Source: Xanthostigma xanthostigma
Lineage: Eukaryota; Arthropoda; Insecta; Raphidioptera; Raphidiidae
Assembly: GCA_963575645.1 (NCBI GenBank)
Contig: OY754465.1
Coordinates: 34,917,501 to 34,981,500, forward strand
Direction: 5' to 3'
Length of the DNA stretch: 64,000 nucleotides
Below the pieces are notes generated by a model, which searched no databases, had not been told where the DNA came from, and saw nothing but the letters and a program-made list of their open reading frames with translations. Positions 5,464-36,224 of the stretch are shown here, in pieces. Positions within the stretch are counted from its first letter, which is position 1. Each line of letters begins with the position of its first letter. Both the position numbers and the translations under genes were made by a program.

Positions 5464-5565
5464 ATGATTTTAACAGTAATTCTGGGAGCCTGTTTAGTTG
5501 CTGCCACTTCCGCAAGCAGTTTTGCAGCTATTGGAAGCGACAATTTAGGATACAACGTATATAAG
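5464..5565 (+). CDS. Serpin exon 1: signal peptide and N-terminus
   Basis: The ATG at 5464 lies 2 bases after an acceptor (T-rich tract ending in CAG at 5461). It opens 34 codons that end at a GTAAAG donor in phase 0. Residues 1-17 (MILTVILGACLVAATSA) form a typical secretory signal peptide with a hydrophobic core and small residues at the end, so cleavage near residue 17 is likely. The remaining residues (to NLGYNVYK) begin helix A of the serpin fold and continue into exon 2 (EIAKTDVKN). The acceptor just before the ATG shows that the 5' UTR is on a separate upstream exon that I could not locate. Confidence 0.92.
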
Positions 5566-6039
5566 GTAAAGTTAAATCTTACTTTATTATTAACTTGCTT
5601 TCTTTAGTATTTTGATTAATTTCTATAAAACTTTTAACAATTAAAATGCACAAGACTTATTTATATTTGAAAAAATCAGTACTAAGTGTTCATACATTTC
5701 GAATTGGTTATTTATCACAGATAAAATCAATTATAAAAATTGAAAATATCACTTAACTAAAAAAATAAAATTTGATAAATTTTAAAATTTGTTTGGGAAC
5801 TCTTTATCTTTTTAGACCTCAAAATAATATGTGTATTAGGCCACACAATTTCTGTCGCTGGGTTAAACAAGTTTACTGCCGACAAGTATACTAATTTAAA
5901 GTATTTTACTTGTTATTATTACTGATTAACAATTTAAATATCCTTTGATCTGCATCAAAATCTAAAAACGATCATTAACAAAATTAGAAATACAGAACAA
6001 AAATGTAGTTCATTATATGTAATTGATTTTTTCTTTCAG
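5566..6039 (+). other. Serpin intron 1
   Basis: Phase-0 intron of 474 bases, starting GTAAAG and ending in a T-rich tract plus CAG. It is AT-rich and no repeat or other gene was recognised in it. Confidence 0.85.
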
Positions 6040-6825
6040 GAAATTGCGAAAACAGATGTGAAAAATATTTTGATAAGTCCCTTTTCGGCAGAAATCATCT
6101 TGGCTCTAACATCTTTGGGTGCAGCCGGACAAACCTATGGTGAATTTGTCACCACGTTGGGTCTTCATGAAAACAAATCAGCTGTAGCAGACAATTTCAA
6201 ACAATTGACAACAACATTACATGGAACAACAAATGTTACATTGAAAATTGCAAATAAGATGTTTGTAGCTGAGGGTTTAACATTGGAGCCAGATTTTAAA
6301 AAATCTGCAGTTGAATCATTCCATTCTGATATTGAAAATATCGATTTTGGAAAAAAAGAACAGGCAGCTAGTAACATTAATGGCTGGGCAAGTTCACACA
6401 CTAATGATAAAATTAAAAAAATCGTTCAAGCTGATGATTTAGACGGAGTTCTCTTATGTCTCATCAACGCGGTTTATTTCTTCGGTGAATGGCCCGAAGT
6501 TTTTACTGTCCTACCAGAACCTATCGATTTTCATACAACAAAAACAACGTCAGTAAAGAAAGAGGCTTTCCACTTTACCGGCTATTATAAATATGCCAAT
6601 ATACCCGAATTAGAAGCTTCCTTACTGGAAATTCCATACAAAGATTCTGACTACGTGCTGCTGATTATCCTTCCAAATGAAGTTGACGGATTAAGTAAAA
6701 TGGAAGCGAAATTTCCAATCGATTTAAACAAATACGAAAATCAACTATCACACACTCGTGTCCATGCCACAGTTCCAAAATTCAAAATTGAACAAACCAT
6801 TCAATTGAAGCCTATTTTAGAAAAG
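6040..6825 (+). CDS. Serpin exon 2: body of the inhibitor fold
   Basis: A single 786-base exon (262 codons, residues 35-296) carries most of the serpin core. Family landmarks in order: NILISPFSAEIILALTSLGA (helix B and the N.xxSPxS motif), GQTYGEF and the TTLGL region, NINGWASSHTNDKIKKIV (helix F region), LINAVYFFGEWPEVF (strand 3A, NAxYFxGxW) and LLEIPYKDSDYVLLIILPNE (strands 2B-3B). NAVYFFGEW has Phe where Lys is usual. An NVT N-glycosylation sequon lies in GTTNVTLK. The exon ends at AAAAG|GTAAG in phase 0. An open frame continues to 6870, but that tail is intron. The start at 6040 is fixed by CTTTCAG and by continuity with helix A. Confidence 0.96.
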
Positions 6826-6830
6826 GTAAG

Positions 6831-6954
6831 TAATTTTTTTATAGCAAATAATATTCCTTTTGTTTATTAAGATATGAAGTTCGATTTATGTAACTATAAA
6901 TCGAACTTCATATCTTAATAAACAAAAGGAATATTATTTGCTATAAAAAAATTA
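6831..6954. repeat. Perfect hairpin next to the exon 2 donor
   Basis: Two complementary arms of about 58 bases flank a loop of about 8 bases. The left arm begins 6 bases after the exon 2/intron 2 junction at 6825/6826. It has no coding sign and is probably a tiny foldback insertion. Confidence 0.9.
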
Positions 6955-7079
6955 AAATAATAATAACAACAATAACGTACAATAATAGACCAGTGAAGTT
7001 AACCTTTGACAAGGAAAAAATTAATAGCAGAAAACGAATGATGAAGAAGGGAATAAACTGCCGTCAGAAATACAGAAAC

Positions 7080-7530
7080 CAAAAATTCAAATGCGTAAAA
7101 GGCAGGGGAGCTGCGGGGGGCGCGTTTTAGGGGTCAAACGCGGTTTTTCGTTATTTTCGGCGAAAGTTGACCTCCAAAAAAAATGTTGTATGGCAATGTT
7201 GTAGGTATTAAGAGGATCTACAACTTTTATGAATATAATTTTTTCACATAACCTTAAAGATTCAGAGAAATATAAAAAAAACCGTGTTTTTCGTTTTTAA
7301 TTTTTTTCTCCTGCAAAAATGATTTTTTTTTTTCATGAAATTTTCAGGAGACTTACCTTTCTCTGTCCTAAATAAGCTGTAATTTTTTCGAATAAAAAAT
7401 TAATTTGGCAATGTAATATTAACAAAAAACCTAAAAATTACCCCTAACTTCAACCTAAAAAAGTAGGTAATGTAAAAATTTCAGATTTTCAAAAATCGTA
7501 GAATGGGGTTTTCTTCGTTGAAATGTCTAC
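7080..7530. repeat. Dispersed-repeat-like segment in intron 2
   Basis: Inside intron 2 (6826-7872). It has GC-richer words (GGGGCGCG, CAAACGCGG) and runs of homopolymer A/T unlike the flanking intron. It has the look of an interspersed repeat, but no ends were found. Confidence 0.35.
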
Positions 7531-7726
7531 TCTCAGATGGTGTATGGATTTAACACTAAGACCGGTTATGAACTTTTGTATAATATGCGCATCATTATCT
7601 TATCGCTTTTGAACATTAGACTTCATGACTTTTTCCTTGATATTTTTCCGAATTACTAAGGAAAACCAACAAGCTAGTCGGAACAGAAATAATCGTTACG
7701 TTTTAAAAGTTCCTGTCACATCTGTC

Positions 7727-7799
7727 CCCGCCGGGTTTCGAACCTAGATACTTTTTGATTGGGAGGATAGTGCTCCACCATTAAGCGCTAATCGCTCAG
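7727..7799 (-). repeat. tRNA-like (SINE-type) remnant
   Basis: On the minus strand an A-box-like block (TTAATGGTGGAGCAC) is followed 30-40 bases later by a good B box (GGTTCGAAACC). Acceptor-stem pairing is not convincing, so this is read as a tRNA-derived SINE or tRNA pseudogene within serpin intron 2. Confidence 0.5.
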
Positions 7800-7872
7800 T
7801 TATAAAATAAATTAATTAATATAATTTTACAATCAATTACAGGAAAAATAATTTTTACAATTTTAATTTCAG

Positions 7873-8014
7873 TTGGGTTTGAATTTGGCTTTCCTTAACA
7901 CAGCAGATTTCTCTGGCATCACCAAAGCAGCCCCACTGAAAATAAGCAAAGTGATACAGAAAACCTTCATAGATGTCAACGAAAAGGGCACTGAAGCTGC
8001 TGCAGTCACAGCAG
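7873..8014 (+). CDS. Serpin exon 3: strand s5A and reactive-loop hinge
   Basis: 142 bases, 47 codons plus one base (residues 297-343), after acceptor AATTTCAG and before GTAAAC. It encodes [16 protein letters not shown], the typical lead into the loop, then the hinge [11 protein letters not shown]. Counted as P17 Glu333, P15 Gly335, P14 Thr336, P12-P10 Ala-Ala-Ala, P8 Thr342 and P7 Ala343, it fits the inhibitory consensus E-E/K-G-T-E-A-A-A-x-T, small residues that allow loop insertion into sheet A. The exon ends one base into the P6 codon, so the scissile bond lies wholly in the alternative exons. The shared inhibitory hinge implies that all isoforms can act as suicide inhibitors. Confidence 0.95.
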
Positions 8015-8611
8015 GTAAACTTTACTAATTATTAAATTAAAAAAAAAAAAACAAATACTTTTTCAAAATACCTAGTGAAAAAAATATTCTTGAGACCTTC
8101 AATTATTAATAAGTGATAATTATTTTTTCAGTCAATAATTTTGCACCTTTCTCTCTATTGTATTTCTTAACTGTTTATTATTCTTTTCTATGCGTTTTAT
8201 ATACCTACATTTCTATATGCCTGAAAAACTCACTGACACTCGTTTCTGACATACTGTCCTTTTACTCGTCATAATAACATTCATGACATTCTAGTTACGT
8301 AAATTACTATCAATTTATTAAAAAAAAATGATTAACGGGTAATTAGTGCTGTTAATAATCAATCAAGAGCAATGCAGACATAAATATTTTTGATCATCAA
8401 ATTGATGTGAAAATCAATAAAGTAAGTAATATTTTTTCTGATTAAAAAAAAATAATATGAGTCACAATTTTAATTTTAAAAAAACGGGTACACGTACTTT
8501 GTACGCGTGTTTGAAGTTATACTTCTTTGGCGTGATTAAAAACTAATTTTTAATATGAATGCAAATAACTGAAGTGAGAATAGCATAAATACAGCTAGGT
8601 ATTATCTAGAC

Positions 8612-8902
8612 CAGGCCTGGGCAAATGGCGGCCCGCGGGCCGGATCCGGCCCGCAGTAGAATTTTCTCGGGCCGGGAAACATTTTATAAATAATTATTAA
8701 GAGCGAAAATAGTTTTCCAATATAATTTGGCGCATAAAAATTTTTTTAGAAAAAAAGTAAATAGCAAGGGCAACAACAGACGAAAAAATACCTTTTTGTT
8801 GCGGAAATGAAAGGACCTTTTTTTTGCTCTCTAAATTTTTGGCCCACGGTCAAATTTTCAACATCAATGTGGCTCGACAATCAGAAGATTTGCCCACCCC
8901 TG
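8612..8902. mobile_element. hAT-type MITE (291 bp)
   Basis: Starts CAGGCCTGGGCAAATG and ends with the inverted version ATTTGCCCACCCCTG. It is flanked by an exact 8-base duplication ATCTAGAC (8604-8611 and 8903-8910), diagnostic of hAT transposition. Non-autonomous, and lies in the long serpin intron. Confidence 0.9.
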
Positions 8903-9731
8903 ATCTAGACGCTACACGCATGGGAACGTGTGGTCTTTACCATACTCTATCTTCCTCATTCAGTGAACCGAAAAACAACTACAACGATATACGTCGAAGA
9001 CATATCGACTAACGTAAGTCAATGGTTCACTACTTCTATTCTGTCGGTAGCCTCTATTCTATTTTATACGAGCAACTTTCATCACGTAAATTTTGATGTT
9101 ACAGTGTACGCGCACAACGTAAAAATTCACTCTTATCATTTTTTTCATAACGCGCCAAATAAAGTATAACTTCAAAAATATCAAAATGTTTATAAAATGT
9201 TACGTAGTGTCGGTTACACTGCAAAACTGCTAAACGTCAACATGCAATCACATAAAATTGTGATTTTATTTTGCCTATAATCCTTATCATGTGACCTGTA
9301 TCTTAGCCAACTATACTATATTATGTTTTCTATCTTAGGTAAGTAAGAACAGCTGGGTTATACTAAAAACGTCGATTTTATTTTAGCAGGACGATCCCAT
9401 TTTCATCTTCTCCAAACGATTTGTTAAGCAAACTATCACTTTTTGTGCACCTACCAGTTCAGCTCTTGGTACACTATAGTATTACTAATACTTTACTAAT
9501 AATTACTGCCACATTTACTCAATCAATGTGAGTCCGGAACATGTGAATTATTTGTATCACTTTAGTCAACTACTGTTAGTTCTTTGTGTCAATCACTTTT
9601 CTTTCAGTGCTTTTTTTCTATTTTCATCTATTTTAAATTAACGATTCTATCACCAAAGGTAGGTATTATATACTAACATTTTCTGCATAATATTGTATAT
9701 AATGAAAATAGTAACTTCTATTGCTATATAT

Positions 9732-10426
9732 AGTGGCATGTGTGAGTCGGAGAACTGGTAAATATTTTGAGCCGGAATGAAACTACCTTCCCTCCCCCCC
9801 CCCCGTTTTCGAAGATGCTGAACACGATGGCGGCGTCAGAATTTCTCGTTGGGGTGGCCCAACCTCTCAAACCGGCCAAAAACCACCCACGGGAGGGGTT
9901 AAACGCAATTTACTAGGTTTCCCTACAGAAAGAAGTACTTTAGCCCCGTTTTCGAGGATGCTGAGCACGGTGATGGGGCTGGATATCGCGTCCGACCCCT
10001 AACAACCCCTCCACCGACCAATACTCGCGCCCGGAAGGGGTGAATTTTTTTTATTATCACCGGGAAACACATTTGTCCCCGTTTCCGAGGATATTGAGAA
10101 TGGGAAAAAAAATCAACCCTTTCGGGGGTGAGTATTGGCCAGTGGAGGAGTTGGTAGGGATCGGACGCGATATCCAACACCACCACCTTGTTCAGTATCC
10201 TCGAAAACGGGGGTTAAGTACTTCTTTCTGCAGGGAAACCTATAGTAAATCGTGTTTGACCTCTCTCGGGGGATGGTTTTTGGCCGGTTTGAGAGGTTGG
10301 GCCACCTCAACGGAAAGTTCTGACGCCGCCATCGTGTTCAGCATCCTCGAAAAAGGGGGGGAAGGTAGTTTCATTCCGGCTCAAAATATTTACCATTTTC
10401 GCATTTTTTACGACACTCACGCCACT
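9732..10426. repeat. Foldback element, arms about 340 bp
   Basis: The sequence from 9732 (AGTGGCATGTGTGAGTCGG) is repeated inverted up to 10426, with the centre near 10080. It is unusually GC-rich for the window (C-runs, CGATGGCGGCGTCAGA). Open frames here are mirror products of the palindrome. Serpin intron. Confidence 0.85.
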
Positions 10427-11559
10427 AATTATAGGTAATGTTAATTTGACTAGAATTATGTTTTGTTTTCTGATGAAACTACGGTAAGTTTGAAATCATT
10501 AGATGGCCGTGAATGAGTATGGCGAATGCCTGAAGAAAGATTTGATGTCTGCGATATCCTTGCAACTCTGTGCGAGTGTCGAAGCAAATTTCTCCCCAGA
10601 ACAACAAGTGATTCCCTTGCAGAGATTTTGCAGGTAACAAATTACCTCCAGGATTTTTTCATAAACAATCAAGTGCATCTGATGATTTCAAAGCATACTC
10701 TAGTTTCGCCAGGAAACTAAATGTGCTTCCAGTTCAATCGTTCCTTTTAGATTAAAAAATAGTGATGAGGCATTTCGAGTGAAAATAATGAAATTCGATT
10801 ATGAAAATATCTCGATACGTTGTTTAAAATCATTCGAATGATTTTTATACCTACGAGCTACCACTTTTGCAACACAATCTCCAGTAATAAATTATTATAC
10901 TACGCTCTTTCTTTACTCTTTGAAATACTGCATGAAGTGTCTCTCACTCAGATTCTCATCAAATGGCATATTAAATGCATGTCACAGTATTAAATATATG
11001 TTCTATTATAAGTACCGCATGCCGGTTACTCTCTCAAGTCTCAGAATTGAAAAGGTGAGCTAAATCATTCGCTTTAATATAACTAATATATAGAATGTAT
11101 AGACAGATCAAATGAATTTTGTTTTCACTCGCATGATGTTTAGTCACCGATATATTAATGAATTTCATTTACGTCTTTTATCTGAGTTTGTTCTATGAAG
11201 CACTGTATCTAAGACTGACAATCGAAACTGAGAGCAAAATTCATTCGAGAGTTGAAACAATCTTTCATTCAAATCGCCTATCATACACCATACGAAGGAA
11301 TAATTTCGAATGAATCATTCGATTATAAAATACATTCGCATGGCAACTTTTCAATTATTAAAATCATTCGATAATTCCCAAGTTTGAAAATATAACTTTG
11401 ACTGGAAGCGGATCATGCAAAATACTTCTTTCGATTTCAGACGAATTAATCAGCAAAAAAATGATCATCCTTTTTGTCGATTCAAGCCTTATTCTAATTT
11501 CTAGTTTCTTCGAACATTGCACGAAATTCATGTTCTTCGTAACTTGTGATTTGTTTCAG

Positions 11560-11687
11560 TGGTGTCTGTCGTCAGTCTATCGGCACCGATCTATCCCATC
11601 GAAGTCAAAATAGACAAACCATTCATCTTCATGTTGCGTCATAAGTCATCCGATATCAATCTGTTCATTGGACGTTACATGCAGTAA
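11560..11687 (+). CDS. Serpin alternative terminal exon A
   Basis: Acceptor TTTGTTTCAG, then 128 bases completing the P6 codon and encoding 42 residues (isoform of 385). The loop reads VVSVVSLSAPIYP before the strand motif KIDKPFIFMLR, and the protein ends INLFIGRYMQ-stop. Counting 17 residues from the hinge Glu puts P1 at Ser with P1' Leu. If P1' is the following Ser, P1 is Leu, giving chymotrypsin- or elastase-like specificity. The loop is one or two residues longer than in exons E and H. AATAAA follows at 11803. It is the most proximal terminal exon, 3.5 kb after exon 3. Confidence 0.93.
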
Positions 11688-11858
11688 CTAATAACTAATT
11701 CAGTAATTAATAGCATTATTCCTTTGTATTTACAATTACTATAGGTTCATATCAGTATCAAATATCAATGTATACGTATTATTATTCACAAACCTCATTT
11801 TTAATAAATTTTTTATAATTATTCGTTATATAATATTTTTGTTCATGTTGGTGTATGT

Positions 11859-11910
11859 GTTACGGTTAATACAAGAAAGTAGTTAATTCGCGAATTAATC
11901 GGCTAATTAC
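11859..11910. repeat. Direct copy of the palindrome's central sequence
   Basis: About 50 bases (GTTACGGTTAATACAAGAAA and on, to GGCTAATTAC) recur at 13519-13569, in the centre of the palindrome that starts here, and inverted just after the centre. No copy flanks the right end. Confidence 0.85.
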
Positions 11911-14900
11911 AAAGGAAACGCTCCTCGTTCGTTCCGTCTTTAGAACTGTTTTGCGCAAGAATCTGATGTCAAGCTCGATTAAGTTAAAAAAGTATTTTTT
12001 AAAAAAAGGTCTGTCGTCTGCATGTATGTTGTTTCTGTGTGTCGTTGCACCCAAAGTGCTAAATCACTGGATAGATTTTCTCATTTAACATGCGCATTTT
12101 GGACGCTCCCTCCTAGAGGTAAAATCTCAAAATCTGTCCATCCTAACTTTGGAAGAAGTGGCTTGCTGCAAACCTCTAGATACCGTTTAATTTAACAGCG
12201 CTGTTAATTTTAACATTGACAATAGAGAATAGCGCCAATAATTAATTGGGCTTTTAACTATTAAGATTGGTCAAATCTTTGATTAACGTCTGATTAGAAC
12301 TCTTCAATAAATAAAATTATCGACCAATTTTTCAGACAATATATTAACAAAATATATTTCTAATTAATACATTAACGTTTCGATTTGGATTTGGATCTTC
12401 TTCAGAACTGATCTAAAAAATATAAAAAATTATTAATATTTAATTTCTAATTCGCTTTTTATAAAATTTCTTCAAAATTATTACTAAATTAATATCAAAA
12501 TATTGAAAAAATATTTTTTCAATATTTTGATATTAATTAATAATTTTAAAGAAATTTTATAAAAAGCGAATTAGAAATTAAAATAATTTTTATATTTTTT
12601 ACATCAGTTTTGAAGAAGATCCAAATCCGGAACGAAACGTTAATGTATATATTATATTTTGTTAATATATTGTCTGAAAAATTGGTCGATAATTTTATTT
12701 ATTAAGATTGGTAAGTACCTACTTAAAAATCTTTTTAAATTAAACGGTTCTATAGTACAATCGATAATGATTGATGCATTAAAAGCTAGAAAATAATTGT
12801 GGATCAGCAATTTGGGACTTTAATCAGACTAAAATAAAATTGTGGGACGCATCTAGTAGAAAGCTTTCTTTTGTTGGAGATCAGAAATCATATTTGAATT
12901 ATATTTTTTCATTACTACATGCGTTCCAGGGTTTTATATCTGATTAAAGCTCCAGACTGCTGATCCACAATAATTTTCTAGCTTTTATCGATTGTACAAT
13001 AAAACCGTTTAACTTTAATGGTTTTTTTACCTATTTTGTTCTAATTATATTATATTGAATTGTCTTCAGTATATAGTAGTGTTGGTTCAATAGAATGTCA
13101 AGATGAAGGAAGGTTTGGTTGACGATCAAGAAATAAGCATTACCAATATGCTACGCTAGTGGCCAACGTTTCGAAAAATATATTTTCATCTTCAGGGCCT
13201 TAAGCTGGTCAAATGGTGGGTAAATTGTTCTAACAATAAACATGATCATTAGTATGAGTTAATACAATTCTAAACATCATATTATCATTTCAATGTGTTT
13301 TCATAATATGCTGTTTAAAATTGCATTAACTCATATTAATGATCATGTATATTGTTAGAACAATTTACCACCATTTGACCAGCTTGAGGTCCTGAAGGTG
13401 AAAATATTTTTTTCGAAACGTCGGCCACTAGCGTAAAATTGGTAATGCTTATTTCTTGGTCCTTAACCAAACCTTCCTTCATAGTGATATTGCACTGTTT
13501 AAATCTGTAGTGCATATGTTACGGTTAATACAAGAAAGTAGTTAATTCGCGAATTAATCGGCTAATTACCCGAATTAACCAATCTTTGACGTTGGTTAAT
13601 TCGGGTATTAGCCGGTTAATTCGCGAATAAACTACTTTCTTGTATTAACCGTAACATATGCACTACAGATTTAAACAGTGCAATATCACTATGAAGGAAG
13701 GTTTGGTTAAGGACCAAGAAATAAGCATTACCAATTTTACGCTAGTGGCCGACGTTTCGAAAAAAATATTTTCACCTTCAGGACCTCAAGCTGGTCAAAT
13801 GGTGGTAAATTGTTCTAACAATATACATGATCATTAATATGAGTTAATGCAATTTTAAACAGCATATTATGAAAACACATTGAAATGATAATATGATGTT
13901 TAGAATTGTATTAACTCATACTAATGATCATGTTTATTGTTAGAACAATTTACCCACCATTTGACCAGCTTAAGGCCCTGAAGATGAAAATATATTTTTC
14001 GAAACGTTGGCCACTAGCGTAGCATATTGGTAATGCTTATTTCTTGATCGTCAACCAAACCTTCCTTCATCTTGACATTCTATTGAACCAACACTACTAT
14101 ATACTGAAGACAATTCAATATAATATAATTAGAACAAAATAGGTAAAAAAACCATTAAAGTTAAACGGTTTTATTGTACAATCGATAAAAGCTAGAAAAT
14201 TATTGTGGATCAGCAGTCTGGAGCTTTAATCAGATATAAAACCCTGGAACGCATGTAGTAATGAAAAAATATAATTCAAATATGATTTCTGATCTCCAAC
14301 AAAAGAAAGCTTTCTACTAGATGCGTCCCACAATTTTATTTTAGTCTGATTAAAGTCCCAAATTGCTGATCCACAATTATTTTCTAGCTTTTAATGCATC
14401 AATCATTATCGATTGTACTATAGAACCGTTTAATTTAAAAAGATTTTTAAGTAGGTACTTACCAATCTTAATAAATAAAATTATCGACCAATTTTTCAGA
14501 CAATATATTAACAAAATATAATATATACATTAACGTTTCGTTCCGGATTTGGATCTTCTTCAAAACTGATGTAAAAAATATAAAAATTATTTTAATTTCT
14601 AATTCGCTTTTTATAAAATTTCTTTAAAATTATTAATTAATATCAAAATATTGAAAAAATATTTTTTCAATATTTTGATATTAATTTAGTAATAATTTTG
14701 AAGAAATTTTATAAAAAGCGAATTAGAAATTAAATATTAATAATTTTTTATATTTTTTAGATCAGTTCTGAAGAAGATCCAAATCCAAATCGAAACGTTA
14801 ATGTATTAATTAGAAATATATTTTGTTAATATATTGTCTGAAAAATTGGTCGATAATTTTATTTATTGAAGAGTTCTAATCAGACGTTAATCAAAGATTT

Positions 14901-15263
14901 GACCAATCTTAATAGTTAAAAGCCCAATTAATTATTGGCGCTATTCTCTATTGTCAATGTTAAAATTAACAGCGCTGTTAAATTAAACGGTATCTAGAGG
15001 TTTGCAGCAAGCCACTTCTTCCAAAGTTAGGATGGACAGATTTTGAGATTTTACCTCTAGGAGGGAGCGTCCAAAATGCGCATGTTAAATGAGAAAATCT
15101 ATCCAGTGATTTAGCACTTTGGGTGCAACGACACACAGAAACAACATACATGCAGACGACAGACCTTTTTTTAAAAAATACTTTTTTAACTTAATCGAGC
15201 TTGACATCAGATTCTTGCGCAAAACAGTTCTAAAGACGGAACGAACGAGGAGCGTTTCCTTTG
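11910..15263. repeat. Large near-perfect palindrome with nested inverted repeats
   Basis: Arms of about 1.67 kb (11910-13582 and 13592-15263) are nearly identical in inverted order around a loop of about 9 bases near 13587. Each arm contains older, visibly diverged inverted repeats (about 12330-12715, 12730-13020 and 13080-13500) with mismatches shared by both arms. Words such as CGAAACGTT recur. No coding potential was seen. It lies between serpin exons A and B. It could be a recent foldback amplification or an assembly fold-back artefact. Confidence 0.9.
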
Positions 15264-16919
15264 TTGAGCAAACATGTTTCCGAGAAACATGAGCTTCACT
15301 GGCACTAATAGAAAGAAATGGTTGTCTTCAGAAGAGCCTAATGCTCGATTTCTTCCCTAAAGGATAAGTTGTGAATAACGTTATCGGAAAGATATCTTTA
15401 AGAATTCGTTTTTGCCACTTACTTTATCCTACAGAGACAGTTATTCGCTGGTTGAGGTACCAAATATCTCAATTGCCCTTTGTGCATGACTCAAATACTG
15501 ACAACTCCTCACACGCTGTTTTTATTGTAACTTTAAAAAACTACGCACACTTGTCAAGCACGAACCTGCATGTACCTACCAGCCTGTTCGTGAAGGTAGT
15601 CATGTTATTTAACGGAGTACCGCACATCAGACCAGCAGCCAGCAACGACCATCAGTCGGTCGCTTGCAATTTCTGTCTAGCCGTGCTGAACCGATCTAGT
15701 GTGCTAGTGATGTGTTGTTTTCATTAAGTTGCAATGATAAAACTACTTGAAAACTGCAAAATTACATTACGAAAAATGCACTAAAATTTGCTGGCATGTG
15801 CTGGTTTATGCTAATATGGTGTACGACATCGTGCAGGTTGCAGATGTGTGCTGTGCTGGTTGTGCAGGTTTATGCTTGACAAGTGTGTGCAATTTTTTAA
15901 AATAAAATAAATGCGTGTATTGTACTCATATTGATGAATAGCAAATAAATAGTATTGAAATTATTTTTAAATATTTTAGGTTAGGTTTTCTTTGCACTCT
16001 TTGTTGTATTTTTACTTCTTTGTCTGCGCTGGTAACGCTGAATACGAAAATGATTAGAAATCCATAGATGCCTCACGAATAGTTGGCCTTCTATTACGTA
16101 ACTAGGGATCTCAATAAGAAATAAAAGTAATCTGCCAAATATGTATCTTTATTTAGACAGGCAGCGTGAGTTGTGAAGAAATCGGCCATAAAACGTCGTG
16201 TTTACCCGAACTTCATGTATCCGATACAGCGCATACCTATACGCATTTTCATTCGAGACGAACGAATTTGTGACCGTTCACCGTTATGACCAGCGGGTTA
16301 ACCACTGAAATGTAGTTATAATTCAGTGGGGTTAACACAAGTCTCCCCTTCCACTTTCTTATTTGACAACAATCTATTGTCATACCACAACAACAAAAAT
16401 AATGTTTGAGAATGAAATCAAGTGGTAAGAGTGGTATCATTGATTAAAATAATAATGGCGGTGAATTTTATATAACCTCAAAAATAATTCAAGATTACGT
16501 GCTGAACATAACATTGAAAAATAGTGATTGTGATAAAAGAATTTTTTTATAAACTATTATGAAAACCGATTGTGCACTAAAATAAAACAAAATAAACTTG
16601 GAAAATCTTAAGAATTCTACTGATATTTAGTTACTTTCTTATCCAACTCAATTCAGATGGTAATACCTACTGTAGACTTTGTCGAAGGGTCCTATCTAAA
16701 TGCATTGAGTATCAACCCGCTGGTTGTGACATCTTATGATAAAATCGGACTATAGTATTATGGCGTATAGACTTGCTAAAGTGCGTGTTAGGGATAAAAC
16801 ATCTCCGACTGACGACATGATTCCAGGAGATATATTACATAATATGTCTAGAACTACCCTAGTCTATTCTAGATACCAAGTATTTTATAGGAAATTGAAT
16901 TCAAACAATTTTGTTTCAG
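15264..16919 (+). other. Serpin intron sequence before exon B
   Basis: No repeat with clear ends was found. Open frames at 15371-15727 and 16249-16440 lack family similarity and splice context and look spurious. Confidence 0.5.
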
Positions 16920-17050
16920 TGTTAACCGTTGGCTATTCTCTACATATTGAACCAAAACCTGTTGAATTTAACGTAGATCGGCCATTTATCTTCATGTTGC
17001 GTCAAAAATCAGCTGCGGTTAATTTATTCGTCGGTCGTCATATTGAATAA
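16920..17050 (+). CDS. Serpin alternative terminal exon B (P1 Tyr)
   Basis: Acceptor TTTTGTTTCAG, 131 bases and 43 residues (isoform of 386). The loop VLTVGYSLHIEPKPVEF is followed by NVDRPFIFMLRQKSAAVNLF and ends GRHIE-stop. The 17-residue count places P1 at Tyr and P1' at Ser, the classic arrangement of an inhibitor of chymotrypsin-like proteases. The upstream open frame to 16736 is intronic. The likely poly(A) signal AATAAA at 17210 falls inside a small transposon (17145-17305), with a further AAATAAAAT near 17335. Confidence 0.94.
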
Positions 17051-17305: not shown

Positions 17306-18013
17306 TATTTAATATGTACGTTTTAAAAATACTAAATAAAATATCTGAAAGCAATAAATCTTCATTTTTTTACTTCAAAATTTCATAAAAAAACAAGCAA
17401 ATGTAATAGGGCAAAGGTACCATTTGTCGATAAGTTTTATATTCATAGGAGGAGGAGGCAAAGATGGAACAATTAGACAATAAGAAAAATAAAAGGACAT
17501 ATTTCATTTTAATCAGTTCAGAGCGAGAACTTATTAGCTTACAAAATGCTGCAAGAATTATTAATAATCTTCAGAAAAAATCAATTACAAAACAAAATAA
17601 AAACATGATTAGCATTTTTTCTTAAAAATACATTGTAATTAATATATTTCGCATATATAGTTTTTGAAGAGAAATTTCTTCAGACGCGGTAGGTAGCAGT
17701 AATTCCGATCGGATATGGTTAAAGCGGGATAGATGTAGTGGTGGGGATAAAGGAAAGGAATACAGTCATTATACTAGTATAAAGTATTAAGTAATTAGTC
17801 AACTCGCTAATCGATAGCAGTAAAAAGTAAAAAAAATATCTTCTATTCGAATTAATTGTCCGAAATTATATGAAAAGCTGATTCGATTTCGAAAAATCAA
17901 TAACGGAATCGTTTTTACCGATCCTGAAGAGCACCCGTAATAAAATTTCTTGAAAATTATACCGCAAATAACAATTCTCAAACTTTCTATACTATTCAGT
18001 GCGCCGTACGATA

Positions 18014-20275: not shown

Positions 20276-20403
20276 TTGAAATTGTACAATTCGGATTATT
20301 CGAAGAAGAAACGGTGGAGATGAATATAGATCATCCATTTGCCTTCGCATTGCGACACAAAAAATCAGAAGTTAATCTGTTAATCGGACGATACAATCAA
20401 TAG
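20276..20403 (+). CDS. Serpin alternative terminal exon C (P1 Phe)
   Basis: Acceptor TTTGTTTCAG, 128 bases and 42 residues (isoform of 385). The loop VEIVQFGLFEEETVEM is followed by NIDHPFAFALRHKKSEVNLL and ends GRYNQ-stop. By count P1 is Phe and P1' Gly, suggesting chymotrypsin-like targets. The P' side is unusually acidic (EEE at P4'-P6' with one more Glu beyond). It has LLIGRY where most isoforms have LFIGRY. No AATAAA is nearby; the first is at 20693, so its 3' UTR may be about 300 bases or use a variant signal. The upstream open frame belongs to the intron. Confidence 0.93.
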
Positions 20404-23222: not shown

Positions 23223-23353
23223 GTGTTTTTGCTCCAATATCAATCCAAATCGTGGAAGAACCAACGCATATTAAATTAGATCATCCGTTTGTTTTCGTAT
23301 TGCGGCACAAAACATCCGAAATAAATCTTTTTATCGGCCGTTATGTACAATAA
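23223..23353 (+). CDS. Serpin alternative terminal exon D (P1 Ile)
   Basis: Acceptor CATTTGTTTCAG, 131 bases and 43 residues (isoform of 386). The loop GVFAPISIQIVEEPTH leads to IKLDHPFVFVLRHKTSEINL and ends FIGRYVQ-stop. The count gives P1 Ile and P1' Ser, which would suit elastase-like or related proteases with small or aliphatic S1 pockets. AATAAA is at 23470. The 3' UTR and part of the upstream intron resemble those of exon E, so D and E are duplicates that have since changed mainly at the loop. Confidence 0.94.
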
Positions 23354-24456: not shown

Positions 24457-24578
24457 TTTTCATTGTTGAATCAATTGAGCGAGAACCAATGAATATTAAA
24501 ATAAATCATCCGTTTGTTTTCGCATTGCGACACAAAACATCCGGAATTAATTTATTTATCGGCCGTTACATACAGTAG
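24457..24578 (+). CDS. Serpin alternative terminal exon E (P1 Glu)
   Basis: Acceptor ATCTGTTTCAG, 122 bases and 40 residues (isoform of 383, joint shortest). The loop VFIVESIEREPMN leads to IKINHPFVFALRHKTSGINL and ends FIGRYIQ-stop. The loop is three residues shorter than D. With P1' at Ser, P1 is Glu, an unusual choice; a straight 17-residue count gives Ser-Ile instead. AATAAA at 24692. The strand and C-terminal part is nearly that of exon D, and the 3' UTR shares CTTTACGTTTAACAATGAAA-type sequence with D. Confidence 0.94.
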
Positions 24579-26307: not shown

Positions 26308-26432
26308 GTATTGCTGTGCTAGCCTCTTTACCTCGACCACCACAAAATGTTATGATGGACCATCCATTTATTTTTGCTTTACGCCACAAATCATCCGGCG
26401 TCAATTTATTCATTGGACGCCACGTAGAATAA
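26308..26432 (+). CDS. Serpin alternative terminal exon F (P1 Ala)
   Basis: Acceptor CTATTTCAG, 125 bases and 41 residues (isoform of 384). The loop GIAVLASLPRPPQNV is followed by MMDHPFIFALRHKSSGVNLF and ends IGRHVE-stop. P1 by count is Ala with P1' Ser, as in elastase inhibitors. The P' side (SLPRPPQN) nearly matches exon G (SLPPPPQN), and the two lie 238 bases apart with a decayed third copy between them, so this is a local tandem duplication. AATAAA at 26500. Confidence 0.94.
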
Positions 26433-26530: not shown

Positions 26531-26608
26531 AATATAAAACTAGATCGTCCATTTATCTTGTGCCAAAAAAAGTGTCAATTTATTCATTGGGCTCTACATA
26601 GAAAATAG
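26531..26608 (+). pseudogene. Decayed serpin terminal-exon relic
   Basis: AATATAAAACTAGATCGTCC and GTCAATTTATTCATTGG match the 3' part of exons F and G (KLDHPF... and VNLFIG...). The stretch between has lost about 20 bases, the frame is shifted, and there is no acceptor or loop sequence before it. It ends CTACATAGAAAATAG. It is read as a dead copy from the same tandem duplication. Confidence 0.85.
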
Positions 26609-26669
26609 TTTTCAAAATATAGTGACATCTGTTTGTTTTAGAGAGAAAGTAAGTTTGATTTTTTTTCAG

Positions 26670-26794
26670 GTATGATTATCGCCCCTTCTTTGCCTCCACC
26701 ACCACAAAATATCAAACTGGACCATCCATTCATTTTCGCCTTGCGTCAAAAATCAGCTGGGGTCAATTTATTTATTGGACGCCATATAGAATAA
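26670..26794 (+). CDS. Serpin alternative terminal exon G
   Basis: Acceptor ATTTTTTTTCAG, 125 bases and 41 residues (isoform of 384). The loop GMIIAPSLPPPPQN is followed by IKLDHPFIFALRQKSAGVNL and ends FIGRHIE-stop. By count P1 is Pro with P1' Ser, an odd P1. If the cleaved bond is one residue earlier, P1 is Ala. Four prolines lie on the P' side. It is closest to exon F, only 238 bases upstream. AATAAA at 26848. Confidence 0.94.
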
Positions 26795-26859
26795 ATATCT
26801 TATTCCATAAATGCTACATGTATTTCTGTTCTTCTATCTTACATTAAAATAAAATTATA

Positions 26860-28880: not shown

Positions 28881-29002
28881 TAATTGAGCTTGAATCTTTA
28901 CCTCCACCACCACTGGAACTTAAAATGAATCATCCGTTTGTTTTTGTCTTGCGTCAAAAATCTTCAGGGATTAATTTATTCATTGGACGTCACATAAAAT
29001 AA
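28881..29002 (+). CDS. Serpin alternative terminal exon H (P1 Glu)
   Basis: Acceptor TTTGTTTCAG, 122 bases and 40 residues (isoform of 383). The loop VIELESLPPPPLEL leads to KMNHPFVFVLRQKSSGINLF and ends IGRHIK-stop. The loop is one residue shorter than F and G. Aligning the conserved SLPPPP puts P1 at Glu with P1' Ser, as in exon E; a straight count would give Ser-Leu. The only isoform ending in Lys. AATAAA at 29167. Confidence 0.94.
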
Positions 29003-29225
29003 ACATAATAATCTACACTTGTTTCAGAATGATTTTTAAGTTGATTATTTTTTTTAACAGCGTCTAGAAATCAAATAGACGAACAAATATTTCAAGTAAC
29101 TTTTTTATAAAAACTAAAAAAATGTATACTTATATTTTACATTTTTGCTTTTGTATCCTGTTTTGTAATAAAATAAGATCTAGCAATTAACGCTTTCTCC
29201 TTGGACATATTATTTAAAATCAATC

Positions 29226-29523
29226 GAAGTAACCAAGAAGGCTTTAATCAGGAGATCCAGCTCGAATGTAGCGGTGGACCGATATCTGTCGCATGAACTA
29301 ATATGGCGTCAGCTACTGGGTAACACACACGTTCATGGCTTGCATGTGTGTGGTGTCTGTTTAAACAACTTTAGTAACTATGGCGAAAGCAGGCGGAAAG
29401 AACCGAAACTTTCCCAGGTAGTGATAGCAGCACCATCTCGCGTGCGCCAGAAAACGGTTCGTTTCGAAACACGACAAGCATAGGAAGCTAGGTCTCCTGT
29501 TTACAGTCTTCTTGGAAGTAGTA
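29226..29523. repeat. Imperfect inverted-repeat element
   Basis: Left CCAAGAAGGCTTTAATCAGG and right, inverted, CCAAGAAGACTGTAAACAGG are similar over about 35 bases. No clear target duplication or protein. The weak open frame inside is probably not a gene. Confidence 0.4.
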
Positions 29524-30604
29524 TTTAATATAATAAATATATTTGAAATGTATTCTTTTGTTTCCGTTGTAGTTCTCCCTAATTTCTTGTCTCGATTATT
29601 AGGGTCGCATTTACGCACATGCTATCTAGCCCCACCACAAAAAAACAGCTTAAAATTTTTAATTTTAATTTTAGAAATGCTGCTAGATTCCTTGCTAGAT
29701 TTACCTACTAGTTTTCTAGCGCTGGTTTACTTGATTGCTGTTATGTGCTCGCTTCACACGAGACGTTTTTCCAAGCTGGTTTTGTGAATAAATCTGGTGC
29801 GCACGCAGTGGCAGTTCAAATATAAACACAGAGCAAAACGTGTATGTTTTCTGACTCTAAGCAGAATGCCGCCATGTTGATTGTGGGCGTTTGTTCAAGT
29901 CGCCCACGTGACAAGACACTGATTCCTGATTGGTTCTTGCTCATATCATCTAACAGCGGGCCTAGCAAGGAAAATAGCCCCTGTTCTACTTTTAAAACCT
30001 ATCTTCTGAGCTAGCAGGCGAGCTCGCAGTGACGTCATTTCCAGCTTCGACCCAGCCTACCGACCAGCAGACCTCCATGCAGTGATTCTAGCATCGTTTC
30101 TAGCTTCGTGTGCAGCGGCCTTCAGCTACTTGAGAATTAAGCAGTAGATTTTTAAACTGCTAGAGAGATTTTCAAATCGGTCCAATAGCTCCTGCGTTAA
30201 TAGCGTAGATACATACTACATTCTTATTTACATAACTAGATACATATCTACGTACAAACATAAGCGTCGAGTTTATAACCACTTTACCATTTTAACTTCA
30301 CAAGTGATAAATGGTACGAGAAAATATAGACGCTAAACAGCCGAGATCATCAGCGTCTATTGATATTGATCGAAATTCTTGTAATGTTACAGGATGTAAT
30401 ATATACGAAAGTCCCACCTCGGAACATCCCCTTTTGGACAAACAACTACCCCTGTAGTTTTGTCGCCTCTTAAATTTCGCGTCCCAAGCCTAAATCCTCC
30501 TCTGGACACACTGATATAATTATTACACAAACTGTCGATTGCTTTCCTGTTAACTTATGTGTTATACCTATGTGCACTGTTCAAGAAAAGATAATTTTTT
30601 TCAG

Positions 30605-30735
30605 TACTGTTTACGAAGGGCAGCTCTCAGTCATCGCAACCACAACGTATTATAACGCTGGATCATCCATTTATGTTTGCCCTGCGTCAAAAATCATTCG
30701 GAATCAATTTATTCCTTGGACGTTACATAGAATAA
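30605..30735 (+). CDS. Serpin alternative terminal exon I
   Basis: Acceptor TTTTTTTCAG, 131 bases and 43 residues (isoform of 386). The loop VLFTKGSSQSSQPQRII is followed by TLDHPFMFALRQKSFGINLF and ends LGRYIE-stop. By count P1 is Gly with P1' Ser. The neighbouring Lys (P2 by count) would make it trypsin-like if the cleaved bond is one residue earlier. The Ser/Gln-rich P' side differs from all other isoforms. AATAAA overlaps the stop (30731) and recurs near 30739. Confidence 0.93.
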
Positions 30736-31089
30736 ACTAAATAAATATTCTTCTTCATACCTCGATCGAAAGTACATACTTTCGACATCAGTTGTAAGAC
30801 AGAAAGTCTTACATTTACGCATCGGTGGGATTACACGCACTGATGCGGGAAGCACGTACGTTTGGGCGCCAGTAAAGCAAAAATAGCCTGTCAACTGTTG
30901 TTTAGATGTCGTTTCCATAGCAACCCTATTACATTTTAGCTGATAGTCGCGAACAACTCTCATTCGTGTTTTTAGGTATAACCTCAAAGCTGCTTGCTTG
31001 GAATTTATCTGTGTTTTTGTGTAATTAATAAGTACTTAAATAATTAATGTATTTAATAAACGTACTGACGACCGAGGTATGAAGAAAAA

Positions 31090-31220
31090 TAGTATACACC
31101 ACACTGGCCAAAAGTTTGATATCCTTGCACTGCACGTCATGATGCCCTCAGGTTCAGCTCGGGCATCATGGCCCGTAGTGCAAGATATCAAACTGCCGGC
31201 CCTTGTGGTGTAATATACTA
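31090..31220. repeat. Compact hairpin, 131 bp
   Basis: AAGTTTGATATCCTTGCACT and its inverse GTGCAAGATATCAAACT pair, with a loop near 31150. It has mismatches typical of an old MITE or of a microRNA-like stem. No terminal duplication was found. Confidence 0.6.
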
Positions 31221-31325
31221 TTAATAAAAATAATATAGTTTGATGTGTACATTTGATTTATAATCTTGAATCTGTTCTCATTATTTATAATAAATACAAC
31301 GATTCGTTAACAGTTTAATAGTCTA

Positions 31326-31706
31326 ATGCTGGGTTGCACAAAGCTTTGTCAAAAAATTTGATTTGACAATGACCTTAGATTGCGATCAAATTATTACAGT
31401 TTTTATACATGCAGGAACAGTTTAATGTCGTTATGAAAGACTTTGTCATGTAGAACATTAGATTGTACTTACACAAAAACAAATGATGATCTACATTGGA
31501 AAAGATTCCTTTTCAAACCAAATTTTGATTAAAAATGGTAGAAAATTATCCAAAAAACGATGGTAAATAACGTTTCAATCGATAAACTATTTTTCAAGCA
31601 GGTCGATTATAAATTCTACAATGTTTTTCTTACGGAGAATGTATGGTCACAATCTAACGCCATTGTCAAATTAGATTTTCTGACAATACTTTCTGCATAC
31701 GAGCAT
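31326..31706. mobile_element. MITE of the ATGCTGGGTTGCA family (381 bp)
   Basis: Left end ATGCTGGGTTGCACAAAGC and inverted right end TTTCTGCATACGAGCAT. Preceded by TA. Inner words match 18014-19320 and 21564-21909 (TTTGATTTGACAATGACCTT). Confidence 0.75.
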
Positions 31707-32399
31707 ACATTTTTGAACACCGACCTTCGATTTACTTACCAAGCAAAATCATTATAGTAGTAACTCGCAAAGCTCTTTTAAGTAATTTAAGTAATTAGTA
31801 AATAATGCCTTATGAAAAAACCGGATTTTTGTTGTTCTGCTAATCGAGCTCATATTTATTACAAAATTTGATTATCTCTCTTGCCTTAATTAAAAAAAAT
31901 TCAAAAGAAAATATAACAAGAAAAGCTAACGCTTTTCACAGAAAACCCTTCGGGTTTTCCTGAGTAACTGTGTATACAGAAATTAGAAAAGATATATTGC
32001 ATTGTATATTAAATTTTATACCATTGATACATTTGCAAAACGGTCTGTCTATCAGGGTTAGTTTTTTTTTTTATTAACTGATTGTTAATAGGTCTATAGA
32101 GCCCGCAACAATAATACATCAAAGCCCACAGTGTCTGTTTTCAGTTGACTAATTACCTATTAGTTTTAAACGCTTTATTTATGAATACATCTTAAAAACA
32201 GTTTACAAACATTATTACTTATCGACAACAAAAAATAAAACCATTGTTTTATAAATAACTTTTTATTTTGTGAAACTGCGTTTTCGAAATTGAATATTAT
32301 CTATTTCGGGGACCCTTTACGTGTTTTCAAACCAGAACAAAGATTATACATGACAATTTATCACAAACCTATTGAACGTGAGACAACCAGTTACAAGTA

Positions 32400-32686
32400 G
32401 GGATCTACCGATACCGATATCATATTGGTTATCGGCCAAAAACGGCCGTTTGGCCGATTAATTATCGGTATCGGCCGATATAAATGTTGGATATCGGCTT
32501 ATCGGCCAAATAATAAAACTAAATACTAATTTCTCATTTAATGCTTAATAAAAATAGGTAAATAAAAAATTAAGGTACTTAAGTATCTACCAGTAGATAC
32601 TTAAGTACCTTAATTTTTTGATTTTTGAAACTTGTTACCTACTTTTATTAAGCATTGAATGAGAAATTAGTATTTAGTTTTATAAC
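32400..32686. repeat. TATCGGCC-rich repeat and foldback
   Basis: 32400-32515 repeats ATCGGCC/TATCGGCCGAT several times. 32516-32686 is a palindrome centred on GTATCTAC-CAGTAGATAC. Probably a MITE remnant in the last serpin intron. Confidence 0.55.
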
Positions 32687-34131
32687 TGTCTCACAAATAA
32701 ATCATTTATTCGCGCGAAGATACTATCATATTATGCTATGTAATATGAATAAAATGTCAGATTTTTTTTATTAAACAGGCATCATTCAAGTTCCCATTTC
32801 AGAGATCAGCATATAAGAATCGATTTTAACCGATTAAAAAAAGCGGTTATTAATTTGTCATATAATATAATACATATATTTATTTTTTCAATTTCTGTTT
32901 AATAGAGCATATTATCTTCAAGGTGGTCACACATAAACTTAATTTAAATCGGTTCAGCAGTTTTTTCTAATTTAGTATTAAAATATTAAGGAATATTAAT
33001 AACGTGAGATTTACATATTGCAACACACTAAAAAATAAAAAACAAATATTACCTTTTTAAAAAAGTTGACAGTCGTTTGAAATATAGAATTATCCAAAAT
33101 TATGCAATAAAGTATTTTTAACGTATTTACAACATTGAAAATTATGTTATTTACAAACAAAAAGCGATTTATAAATGTTTAGAACAAATTTCGTGACAAT
33201 TGGAAAGTTAAATACATGGCAATAATCGAAAAATTTATTTTCTGGCAAGCCAACAGATATGAATTTATTACAGTCAGACGAAGATAGATAGCAATACATT
33301 TTTAGGCCAGTCGGAAAGATAATGAACCGATGCACAAATCTCCTTTAATAGTTTTTTTTTGCAGCTTGCATGGTATAGAAGTAACGGAGGTTTGTTTGAC
33401 AAATTATGGCCAAAAAGGCACTAATTTTTTAGTTACATAAATTAAACTTAGCAAGGCTCTTCACATGATGGGAACGCATCTGTGTTCAAAATTTCGTCGA
33501 AAACAGATTTCAGTTACTCGAGAAAACGTATGACATAGGAATTCATACAGGATTATTGCGAATACAATATACATCGAGGGCTTCGATGTATAATAATATA
33601 TACTTACTGTATTTGAAAAAATTATTTACAGGGGGGCATATACATGATTAGCAAAAAAAAATATATAAAATGAAGTAGGTAATAATATTATTCGCATAGG
33701 TGAAATTCTCGCAGTTTTAAAGCGTTAGTGACATATAGAAAGATACTTTTGATTGTGTGTAGACGACTAGCAAGTAGAAGTCTTTATTCAAAAGAAAATA
33801 CGCAGTAATAATAAGGATCGAAACCGAAAACGGCACCGTAATTACTTATTTTAACTAACCGAAACCAAAACTGAAATCTTACATAAACCGTAACTGAATC
33901 CGAAACGGCAAATGTAAATGTCAAAAAACTGAAATTGGAGTTAAAACCAAAATAAAAATATTGTTACACTTCACCTAAATAAAATCATCGTAGAATTTTG
34001 TCCCCAGTAATAAATGCAAAACTGTTGAACTTGACGGTACTGCACTTCTGTAACTTATTAATGGAGTTAGATTTTCACTACACTTCGGTTCCAATTATTG
34101 TTTCACCCGAACATTCAGTTATCAATTAGAC
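32687..34131 (+). other. Serpin intron, no feature recognised
   Basis: AT-rich intronic DNA between exons I and J. No splice-competent serpin exon, repeat with ends, or coding region was found. Confidence 0.5.
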
Positions 34132-34441
34132 CAGTGATTCCCAAAGTGAGCGCTACCGCCCCCCTGATGGGCGCTGCAGCGATTCAGTGGGGCGGGGATG
34201 GCCACAGGTGCATTTGGAGGCGATGAATTCTGAGTTAAATAAATAGTTTCACAATTTCAAACTTCAATGTTTCAAATTTTCATCTTTCTTTACTATATTT
34301 TACGAAAAAAATAGAAACATTAATATATATACATATATTTCTGTTATATTTTTGTTAAAATTAAAAAAAAATTCCTGGGGCCACTGACTAATATTTTCTC
34401 TAGAAAGGAGGCGGTATGACAAATAAGTTTGGGAACCACTG
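34132..34441. mobile_element. hAT-type MITE (310 bp)
   Basis: Ends CAGTGATTCCCAAAGTGAGC and, inverted, CAGTGGTTCCCAAAC. Exact 8-base duplications AATTAGAC lie at 34124-34131 and 34442-34449. No transposase. In the last serpin intron. Confidence 0.92.
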
Positions 34442-35259
34442 AATTAGACAAACCGAAAACATTACCGAATATAATATGAATTTCGGTCTCGGTCTCGGTT
34501 GTCATTAATTATTAAGTCAAATATCAAGGCAAAATATCCAGTATTTTTTTTTACCATTCCAACCCACAAGTGGGGAATGGTACTAGTTTAGATCAAGATT
34601 CACTTTTCAAAATTTTACAATATTTTTTTCGTTTTGAGTTCCCCAAATCCAAAAAAACATATTTTTGGAAAAACTCTGTGAGTCTGTTTGTCTGTTAGTC
34701 TGTGAGCCCGAAACAGATCAAAATTTTGGGAGGATGTTTGATACGTAAATATGAAAAGCCCTATATTGTTTTTTGGGAAAAATCGGCGCATGCGCAAAAG
34801 AGATATACAGGGTGAGTCAGACCACCCGTACCGTTCGTTTTTTTTTTCGAAAATGGTTAGTCGTAGAGAGTTGTGTCAAAAATCTGCATTATAAAAACCC
34901 TAATGAAGAATCGAATGGTGATATTTTTTTTTCCAGAAAGGTCGGCTTCCCTATTAGTTTGCTCCAGAATGTTCAGAACTCCGAAATATTAAATGGCACA
35001 ATAGGTCGAAAGTGGTATTGTTGAAAAGATCTTTAAAATATAAGCATTTTTGTAGGACATTTTTTTTTATTACTGCCACCCCAGTTAAGTAATATTCGTT
35101 TGAAATTATTAAATTAACATGTCATAATAACGAACTTAATTTTAAAAGTTGGCATTGAAAATCAAGTTCCCTAATTAAACAATTAATGTCGCAATAAATT
35201 TTCAATAATCGCAATTGTTTTTTTTTTTTTTGTCGGAAAATACTTAGAGGTACTAGGCT

Positions 35260-35847
35260 AGACGGCGAGGAGGTAAAAACATTAAAAAGGGCATTATTCG
35301 GGCACAGGCGAGATTATTGTTGGAATCGCTTCGTTTTAGGGTGTAGTTCAACCCCGAAGTTTGCTTACAAATTGTTGGTGTGCTTGATTTTATAATTGAC
35401 AATTAGTGACGAAAATAGTGCCTTTTTCTCTATTTCCTTTAATATCTCCGTTCCTCTTGACTTTTAGTATAGCATATGCATTGAGAAAGTTGTTACTTAT
35501 GAAATTTCCTAAAAAATGAGCACTGACAGAGGTCGCTAAGTGCAATTGTTAACTTGCAAATAGCCCGTTTTTTCACTATTTTTTTACTAAAAAATGACCG
35601 CGCATAGATGGCTGAGACTTTTCAAAAATGATGTCTATGTTGAACCAAATATGCATGAATAATTTTAGCGTCATCGGTCAATTACTTGTCGAGTAATTAA
35701 CGATCACTTTTTTATTGTTTCCTTAATTGCAAATTGCGCCATTTTTTTCACAAACGGGTTTCGCTGGTCGGACCAAGCCAGAAAAATCACATATCCATTC
35801 AGCTTTAGTATCCCGTTGGAATTTTTGGAAAAAATTAATTCTAACCG
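35260..35847. repeat. Single arm of the 3075-4361 foldback family
   Basis: Runs from AGACGGCGAGGAGG to TTAATTCTAACCG, matching the left arm 3075-3688 closely but without its inverted partner. Confidence 0.85.
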
Positions 35848-36087
35848 AAAGTGTCACATGTGTTCACAAATAGGGTAGATACTATTTCTTACATTTTTCT
35901 CAACGGACGTCGAAAACAAAGCGTTAGTTGGGTGATGTTTTATGGTTACTTTTAATAGTCAGTGATTAAACAAATACTTATTAGTAAATTTAAAATATGA
36001 ATGAACACCGCAGTTACTGGCTTTAAATATAAGAATATTGATTCCAAAACTTTCAAGTATTTTTGATTTTCTGTTTTATTGTTTCAG

Positions 36088-36224
36088 TGGGATGTGTGAC
36101 TAGGTGCTCTCTAGTACCGGCACCTCCACCACCAATACCATTCAAAGTGGATCATCCATTTATCTTCATGTTGCGTCACAAATCCTCGGCAATTAATTTA
36201 TTTTTTGGCCGCTATATAGAATAA
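36088..36224 (+). CDS. Serpin alternative terminal exon J (P1 Arg)
   Basis: Acceptor TTATTGTTTCAG, 137 bases and 45 residues (isoform of 388, the longest). The loop VGCVTRCSLVPAPPPPIPF is followed by KVDHPFIFMLRHKSSAINLF and ends FGRYIE-stop. The 17-residue count puts P1 at Arg, suggesting a trypsin-like target such as a clip-domain protease of an immune cascade (inference). Cys at P4 and P1' flank the Arg, unlike any other isoform. A proline-rich P' side links it to F, G and H. AATAAA at 36298. It is the most distal exon, 28 kb from exon 3. Confidence 0.93.

Follow-up and report, generated by a model that had tools for sequence, protein, structure and literature searches.

The window analysed here, a 64,000-nucleotide (nt) stretch of chromosome 2 of the snakefly Xanthostigma xanthostigma (GCA_963575645.1, contig OY754465.1, positions 34,917,501 to 34,981,500 of the forward strand), carries the core of a serpin gene in three coding exons. 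Downstream, on the same strand, lie ten exons (E1-E10) that each encode a bait loop, a serpin C-terminus and a stop. These features and the related serpin loci of the same genome are listed in Table 1.

Table 1. Serpin features of the window and related loci. Positions are those of the window unless a chromosome is named.
Feature	Position	Strand	Characteristics
Core exon 1	5464..5565	+	102 nt; signal-like hydrophobic start (by eye) and serpin start; ends in phase 0; GT donor at 5566
Core exon 2	6040..6825	+	786 nt; main serpin body; donor GTAAGT at 6826
Core exon 3	7873..8014	+	142 nt; hinge GTEAAAVTA at its end, then the first base (G) of the split codon; GTAAAC donor at 8015
E1	11560..11687	+	VVSVVSLSAPIYPIEVKIDKPF..GRYMQ; stop included
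E2	16920..17050	+	VLTVGYSLHIEPKPVEFNVDRPF..GRHIE
E3	20276..20403	+	VEIVQFGLFEEETVEMNIDHPF..GRYNQ; most divergent of the ten
E4	23223..23353	+	GVFAPISIQIVEEPTHIKLDHPF..GRYVQ; counterpart of the sole exon in paralogues C2a and C2b
E5	24457..24578	+	VFIVESIEREPMNIKINHPF..GRYIQ; copy of the E4 region (340 nt, 73%)
E6	26308..26432	+	GIAVLASLPRPPQNVMMDHPF..GRHVE
E7	26670..26794	+	GMIIAPSLPPPPQNIKLDHPF..GRHIE
E8	28881..29002	+	VIELESLPPPPLELKMNHPF..GRHIK
E9	30605..30735	+	VLFTKGSSQSSQPQRIITLDHPF..GRYIE
E10	36088..36224	+	VGCVTRCSLVPAPPPPIPFKVDHPF..GRYIE; longest loop
Decayed eleventh bait-loop exon	26531-26605 (approximate)	+	between E6 and E7; broken frame; tail part only
Possible inverted bait-loop relic	17378..17503	-	SLPPPPMNIKL; profile E 0.034 and 0.36
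C2a and C2b, local duplicates	chromosome 2: 34888265-34908563 (L011-L013)	opposite strands	each with an E4-type exon only
Second bait-loop array	chromosome 7: 4002119-4015684 (L016-L018)	-	long core exon; 11 bait-loop exons
Four tandem serpins of similar build	chromosome 3: 39984148-40005597 (L019-L022)	-	one C-terminal exon each, by window profile

When joined, the core exons gave a stop-free translation of 343 residues that was matched by the Pfam Serpin profile (E = 9.4e-84), and the hinge agreed with the tested serpin hinge pattern at every position. With the hinge Glu taken as P17, a numbering convention that we assume here, the codon split after core exon 3 is P6. The coordinates, the open translation and the donor at 8015 thus bear out an earlier note on this DNA, which had described three shared exons ending one base into the P6 codon. 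The closest solved structures were 'Serine protease inhibitor 4, isoform B' (1.2e-56), presumably Drosophila Spn42Da, followed by alaserpin (2.9e-55) and serpin K (3.9e-54), two structures presumably from Manduca that scored 191 and 187 bits against the core.

The gene product, whose start looks signal-like by eye, is probably secreted. An acceptor-like TTACAG tract ends at 5461, two bases ahead of the ATG, so that a 5' non-coding exon is likely to lie upstream and core exon 1 is probably not the first exon transcribed. No alternative intracellular first coding exon with a strict donor was found in the 5.5 kb upstream; the lone candidate, ending at 993, was poor, having a loose donor only, and was rejected as unconvincing. 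In the intron that follows core exon 2, positions 6831-6954 form an inverted repeat whose 59-nt arms match perfectly around a 6-nt loop; it starts at the sixth intron base. Scanning the window for Rfam families and tRNAs gave no match.

All ten downstream exons close with a conserved 25-residue block (containing xPF and GR) followed by the stop. In the 140-nt stretch located 60-200 nt upstream of the last sense base of each exon, a single TTTCAG was present in 10 of 10 cases, against 0.12 expected per stretch, and each of these acceptors, counted without a phase filter, completes the codon left split by core exon 3. The ten exons with a CAG acceptor, a common phase, a C-terminal motif and a stop were thus recovered as previously described, with the qualification that the motif is conserved in all ten as xPF and not as HPF, since it reads KPF in E1 and RPF in E2. 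Every product of core plus exon reached position 368 of the 370 positions of the Pfam serpin profile (four as full-length matches and six as C-terminal pieces of 155-158 residues), and this full-profile domain places the gene in the serpin superfamily.

A profile seeded with eight of the ten exons scored them at E-values of 7e-27 to 4e-18. When each exon was left out of its own profile all ten were still found, at 9.7e-15 (E3) to 1.2e-23 (E5), whereas the same approach applied to ten shuffled windows gave best E-values of 0.019 to 1.6. A genome search with the hinge plus E7 returned 22 matches: the ten exons, the exons of the neighbouring paralogues C2a and C2b, and ten weaker matches to other serpins, some of which, with 0.0017 as the best, ranked ahead of E3 (0.007). 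The hinge plus the E10 loop matched mostly unnamed serpins in a protein collection; the named proteins among the best 120 of 215 matches included bacterial serpins and one from a bird, and no named insect relative.

The decayed copy between E6 and E7 was recognized by two weak, frame-split profile matches and by an 86-nt stretch that is 70% identical to the tail of E7 (E = 1e-5). The inverted relic is weak and possibly a chance match, as shuffled windows reach 0.019. The intron between E1 and E2 holds an inverted repeat (11909-15264) with 1658-nt arms that are 100% complementary and 40 nt apart; no bait-loop exon lies inside it. Of the 701 nt of one arm that were tested, about 430 nt correspond to a fold-back repeat occurring genome-wide, while for the first 260-odd nt the 80 matches listed, which came from 40 scored candidates out of 2764, included no place other than the two arms. 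This structure is either a palindrome of very recent origin or a fold-back created by the assembly.

The window contains no second serpin core: the core query found the three core exons only, the next match having an E-value of at least 0.24. A genome-wide serpin search, with at least 58 matches from 86 scored candidates, also placed no core downstream on chromosome 2 before 63.9 Mb among the matches listed. One core, ten in-phase terminal exons and the lack of a second core fit a single alternatively spliced serpin, and we consider it very probable that they form one presumably inhibitory serpin gene with ten alternative last exons, each isoform having its own bait loop. The proposal of one scaffold, as opposed to separate serpin genes, therefore stands for the window. 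The structure of the gene (10 of 10 exons homologous and in phase, one core) is that of the insect serpins with C-terminal bait-loop splicing.

The exon tails are under purifying selection. Over their 25 codons the proportion of nonsynonymous differences (pN) was lower than that of synonymous differences (pS) in all 45 pairs, averaging 0.173 for pN and 0.669 for pS. In the loop part, pN/pS was about 0.8-1.2 for the pairs E6/E7, E7/E8, E6/E8 and E5/E8, compared with about 0.13-0.20 in the tail, the loop values coming from an uncertain right-anchored alignment with few sites and 4-5 synonymous differences. A conserved frame with a freely changing bait would give this pattern. Judged by position, the P1 residues would roughly be S or L, Y, F, I, and E or S in E1 to E5, and A, P, E or S, K or G, and R in E6 to E10.

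Only part of the ten exons may be in use, the others being silent relics that decay like the copy near 26531-26605. That copy shows that exons turn over, C2a and C2b each hold just one bait-loop exon, and E3, the most divergent exon, had the lowest leave-one-out score, ranked last among the ten when the genome was searched and was matched only twice with 120 serpins from the first protein search as queries. On the other hand, all ten exons are open with intact acceptors and stops, and the excess of pS over pN extends to every tail pair. We regard such partial use as a tentative possibility, somewhat unlikely on this evidence.

The two paralogues lie upstream of the window, the cores of the array gene, C2a and C2b being within 30 kb of one another. 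C2a is an inverted copy running from 34,894,698 down to 34,891,406, with a bait-loop exon ending at 34,888,265 and no stops in the exons seen; the protein of its exon 1 is 97% identical to that of core exon 1. C2b is a broken plus-strand copy starting at 34,904,884, with a bait-loop exon ending at 34,908,563, two stops in exon 2 and its donor lost. The bait-loop exons of both copies grouped with E4 in a nucleotide tree of the tails (97.6/98), with lower support in a five-row tree of exon plus flank (94.8/66 and 89.7/63), and both copies keep pieces of the E4 flanks in order.

Between the window gene and C2a, pS was 0.228 in core exon 2, 0.211 in exon 3 and 0.157 in exon 1, and it was 0.219 for the exon 2 piece of C2b. 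E4 gave a pS of 0.232 against C2a, 0.227 against C2b and 0.26 against E5, compared with 0.49-0.89 against the other eight exons, two to four times the value of core exon 2. Since the synonymous divergence between E4 and most other exons exceeds that of the cores, the array, with the possible exception of E5, is probably older than the local gene duplication, and the copies would have lost all but E4; this comparison uses exon tails of only 29 codons and an unrooted exon tree. In the opposite order, the duplication came first, the array later grew out of one E4-like exon, and the paralogues keep the ancestral state. Such an order would agree with the single exon of both paralogues, and an unrooted exon tree by itself permits a late array. 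The pS between E4 and E5 is compatible with either order, but the values for eight of the nine other exons lie above both those of core exon 2 and those between E4 and the paralogues (0.23), which makes a late origin of the array unlikely.

An AATAAA is located 4-289 nt past the stop in 10 of 10 exons. Its occurrence within 300 bases of every stop makes alternative last exons the favoured and probable arrangement, with a separate poly(A) site for every exon. In nine of the ten exons it lies within 175 nt, against a background of 0.352 at random places of the array (P = 6e-4). In the pre-mRNA, core exon 3 would be joined to one of the ten last exons, which would bring a stop and probably also a poly(A) site with it; each mRNA would then carry a single loop with no extra device. 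With the core stopping within the loop, one base into the P6 codon, the scissile bond and the final beta strands would come from the chosen exon, and every isoform would trap a protease of its own. The bait-loop exons arose by local duplication.

Several points weigh against this interpretation. The joining of the exons is a prediction from DNA, and the P1 assignments are guesses from position. When AATAAA or ATTAAA within 175 nt was accepted the enrichment was weak (P = 0.012), as the DNA is AT-rich, and in the chromosome 7 gene 3 of 11 exons have neither signal within about 600 nt. Donor-like sites are also present within 250 nt past some of the stops, with best scores of 5-8 out of 9 that are roughly those of background (500 random stretches); the top score of 8, after E6, was equalled or exceeded in 33 of the 500. 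The donor-like sites and the missing signals on chromosome 7 would suit mutually exclusive internal exons that are all spliced to a common 3' untranslated exon. In Manduca serpin-1 a shared exon 10 follows the alternative exon 9. However, every one of the ten exons here is followed closely by AATAAA, and C2a, having the E4-type exon only, keeps an E4-like 3' flank (265 of 314 aligned bases identical over exon and flank, AATAAA included), so that we consider internal exons improbable and continue to favour alternative last exons.

That the ten exons are parts of several separate serpin genes with cores elsewhere or lost is scarcely credible and was dropped, for although related cores lie nearby upstream (the inverted C2a and the broken same-strand C2b), no core was found between or after the exons in the window, nor downstream as far as the matches listed reach, the same-strand neighbour core has two stops and no donor, and each paralogue has its own exon beside it.

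The second array, on chromosome 7, has an in-phase acceptor for 11 of 11 exons (6 CAG and 5 TAG, in-phase sites only being listed). One of its exons encodes an RLRR-S loop and ends in HDEL; HDEL is an endoplasmic reticulum-retention signal and RxRR a furin-type site. This gene is spliced at +1 of the hinge and the window gene at +4. In a protein tree of exon tails (47 rows), which was weak and poorly resolved, the window exons joined no chromosome 7 exon at a supported fork; the only split used was that uniting E4, C2a and C2b, from the nucleotide tail tree. A single long core exon was common to the related genes examined in X. xanthostigma.

Other features of the window include fold-backs at 3104-4342 (477-nt arms, 98%) and 46352-46714 (180-nt arms, 99%, 3-nt loop), and 61 nt at 3621-3681 that match, at 97%, a stretch lying 240-300 nt before E10. 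A 154-156-nt unit is tandemly repeated at 38867-39331, 49274-49836 and 50208-50608, the arrays at 49-50 kb being oppositely oriented and so forming long inverted repeats. On the minus strand there are a 368-residue open frame without a Pfam match (47466-48571) and a weak, sub-cut-off match to a reverse-transcriptase zinc-binding domain (42329-42837; 22.6 of 27.5 bits). Elsewhere in the genome, COX1-like nuclear pieces with stops on chromosome 6 (1195571-1196020) and chromosome 2 (16906869-16907126) are probably mitochondrial insertions. The COX1 of a mitochondrial contig shows 97% identity to that of Mongoloraphidia harmandi, a raphidiid snakefly, and 95% to that of Agulla arizonica, likewise a raphidiid, in keeping with a snakefly source.

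C-terminally spliced serpins have been listed for 192 insect genes with 1406 products, a mean of 7.32, and with splicing at +1 in 161 genes and at +4 in 19 (PMC10513286); by that numbering the window gene is spliced at +4, one of the two main insect positions. The acceptors of such insect genes read TTNCAG (PMC10513286), and in this respect the TTTCAG sites of the window gene are like those described with Pteromalus puparum PpSerpin-1. That gene differs in having 21 forms (PMC10513286) versus ten, seven constitutive exons (PMC5691223) versus three core coding exons, and an intracellular N-terminal form; the 5.5 kb ahead of the window gene contained no convincing coding exon for such a form. 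In Manduca sexta and Bombyx serpin-1 the loop is likewise on an alternative exon, in 14 and 4 copies (PMC5691223), but this is the ninth exon and the core is thus many-exon, unlike the three-exon core here. An enrichment of NF-kappaB-like sites has been reported for alternatively spliced serpin genes (PMC10513286); 3464-8013 contained none, but with 0.39 expected this count carries no information.

Drosophila Spn42Da (Spn4) has two invariable core exons followed by four alternative loops, with R-R-K-R as the furin loop (PMC4006314). The furin-type basic loop and the C-terminal HDEL of Spn42Da isoforms were found in none of the ten window exons and in one of the 11 exons on chromosome 7, so that the chromosome 7 gene looks like the better counterpart of Spn42Da. 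Against these systems the statement in the earlier note that ten exons are at the high end is overstated, given the mean of 7.32, the 21 of PpSerpin-1, the 14 of Manduca and the 11 on chromosome 7. The contrast it drew between the few-exon core and moth serpin-1 is correct, but the structure is not new, as Spn42Da has two core exons and relatives in the same genome share the long exon. Bait-loop exon switching is already established in insects, and the X. xanthostigma gene is a further member with an exon number above average and not extreme.

The best match in the protein search was an antichymotrypsin-2-like protein of Chrysoperla carnea (P0001; 45% identity, 3.4e-90; cluster of 14 sequences). 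Green lacewings belong to the same superorder, and in the venom of one of them alternative splicing of a single gene yields many serpin isoforms (PMC12758981). The four chromosome 3 copies are 47-48% identical to P0001 and the window core 46%. One core tree paired P0001 with the window (91/77) and another showed no clear pairing, so that P0001 is a candidate orthologue only.

No paper joining Raphidioptera with serpin was found in the open-access collection searched, and the present gene extends bait-loop exon switching to snakeflies, with two separate arrays, one of 10 exons and one of 11, within a single genome. The reduced single-exon neighbours are the more interesting part of the find. 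We lean slightly towards the view that the array gave rise to single-purpose genes. An old serpin with ten exons would have been duplicated locally and the E4-type loop fixed in the copies, while a second, 11-exon array was kept. If true, this would directly exemplify the conversion of alternative splicing to gene duplication. Across insects the splicing repertoire and gene duplication are negatively correlated (PMC10513286), and the single-exon neighbours allow a direct test of the exchange between splicing repertoires and gene families.

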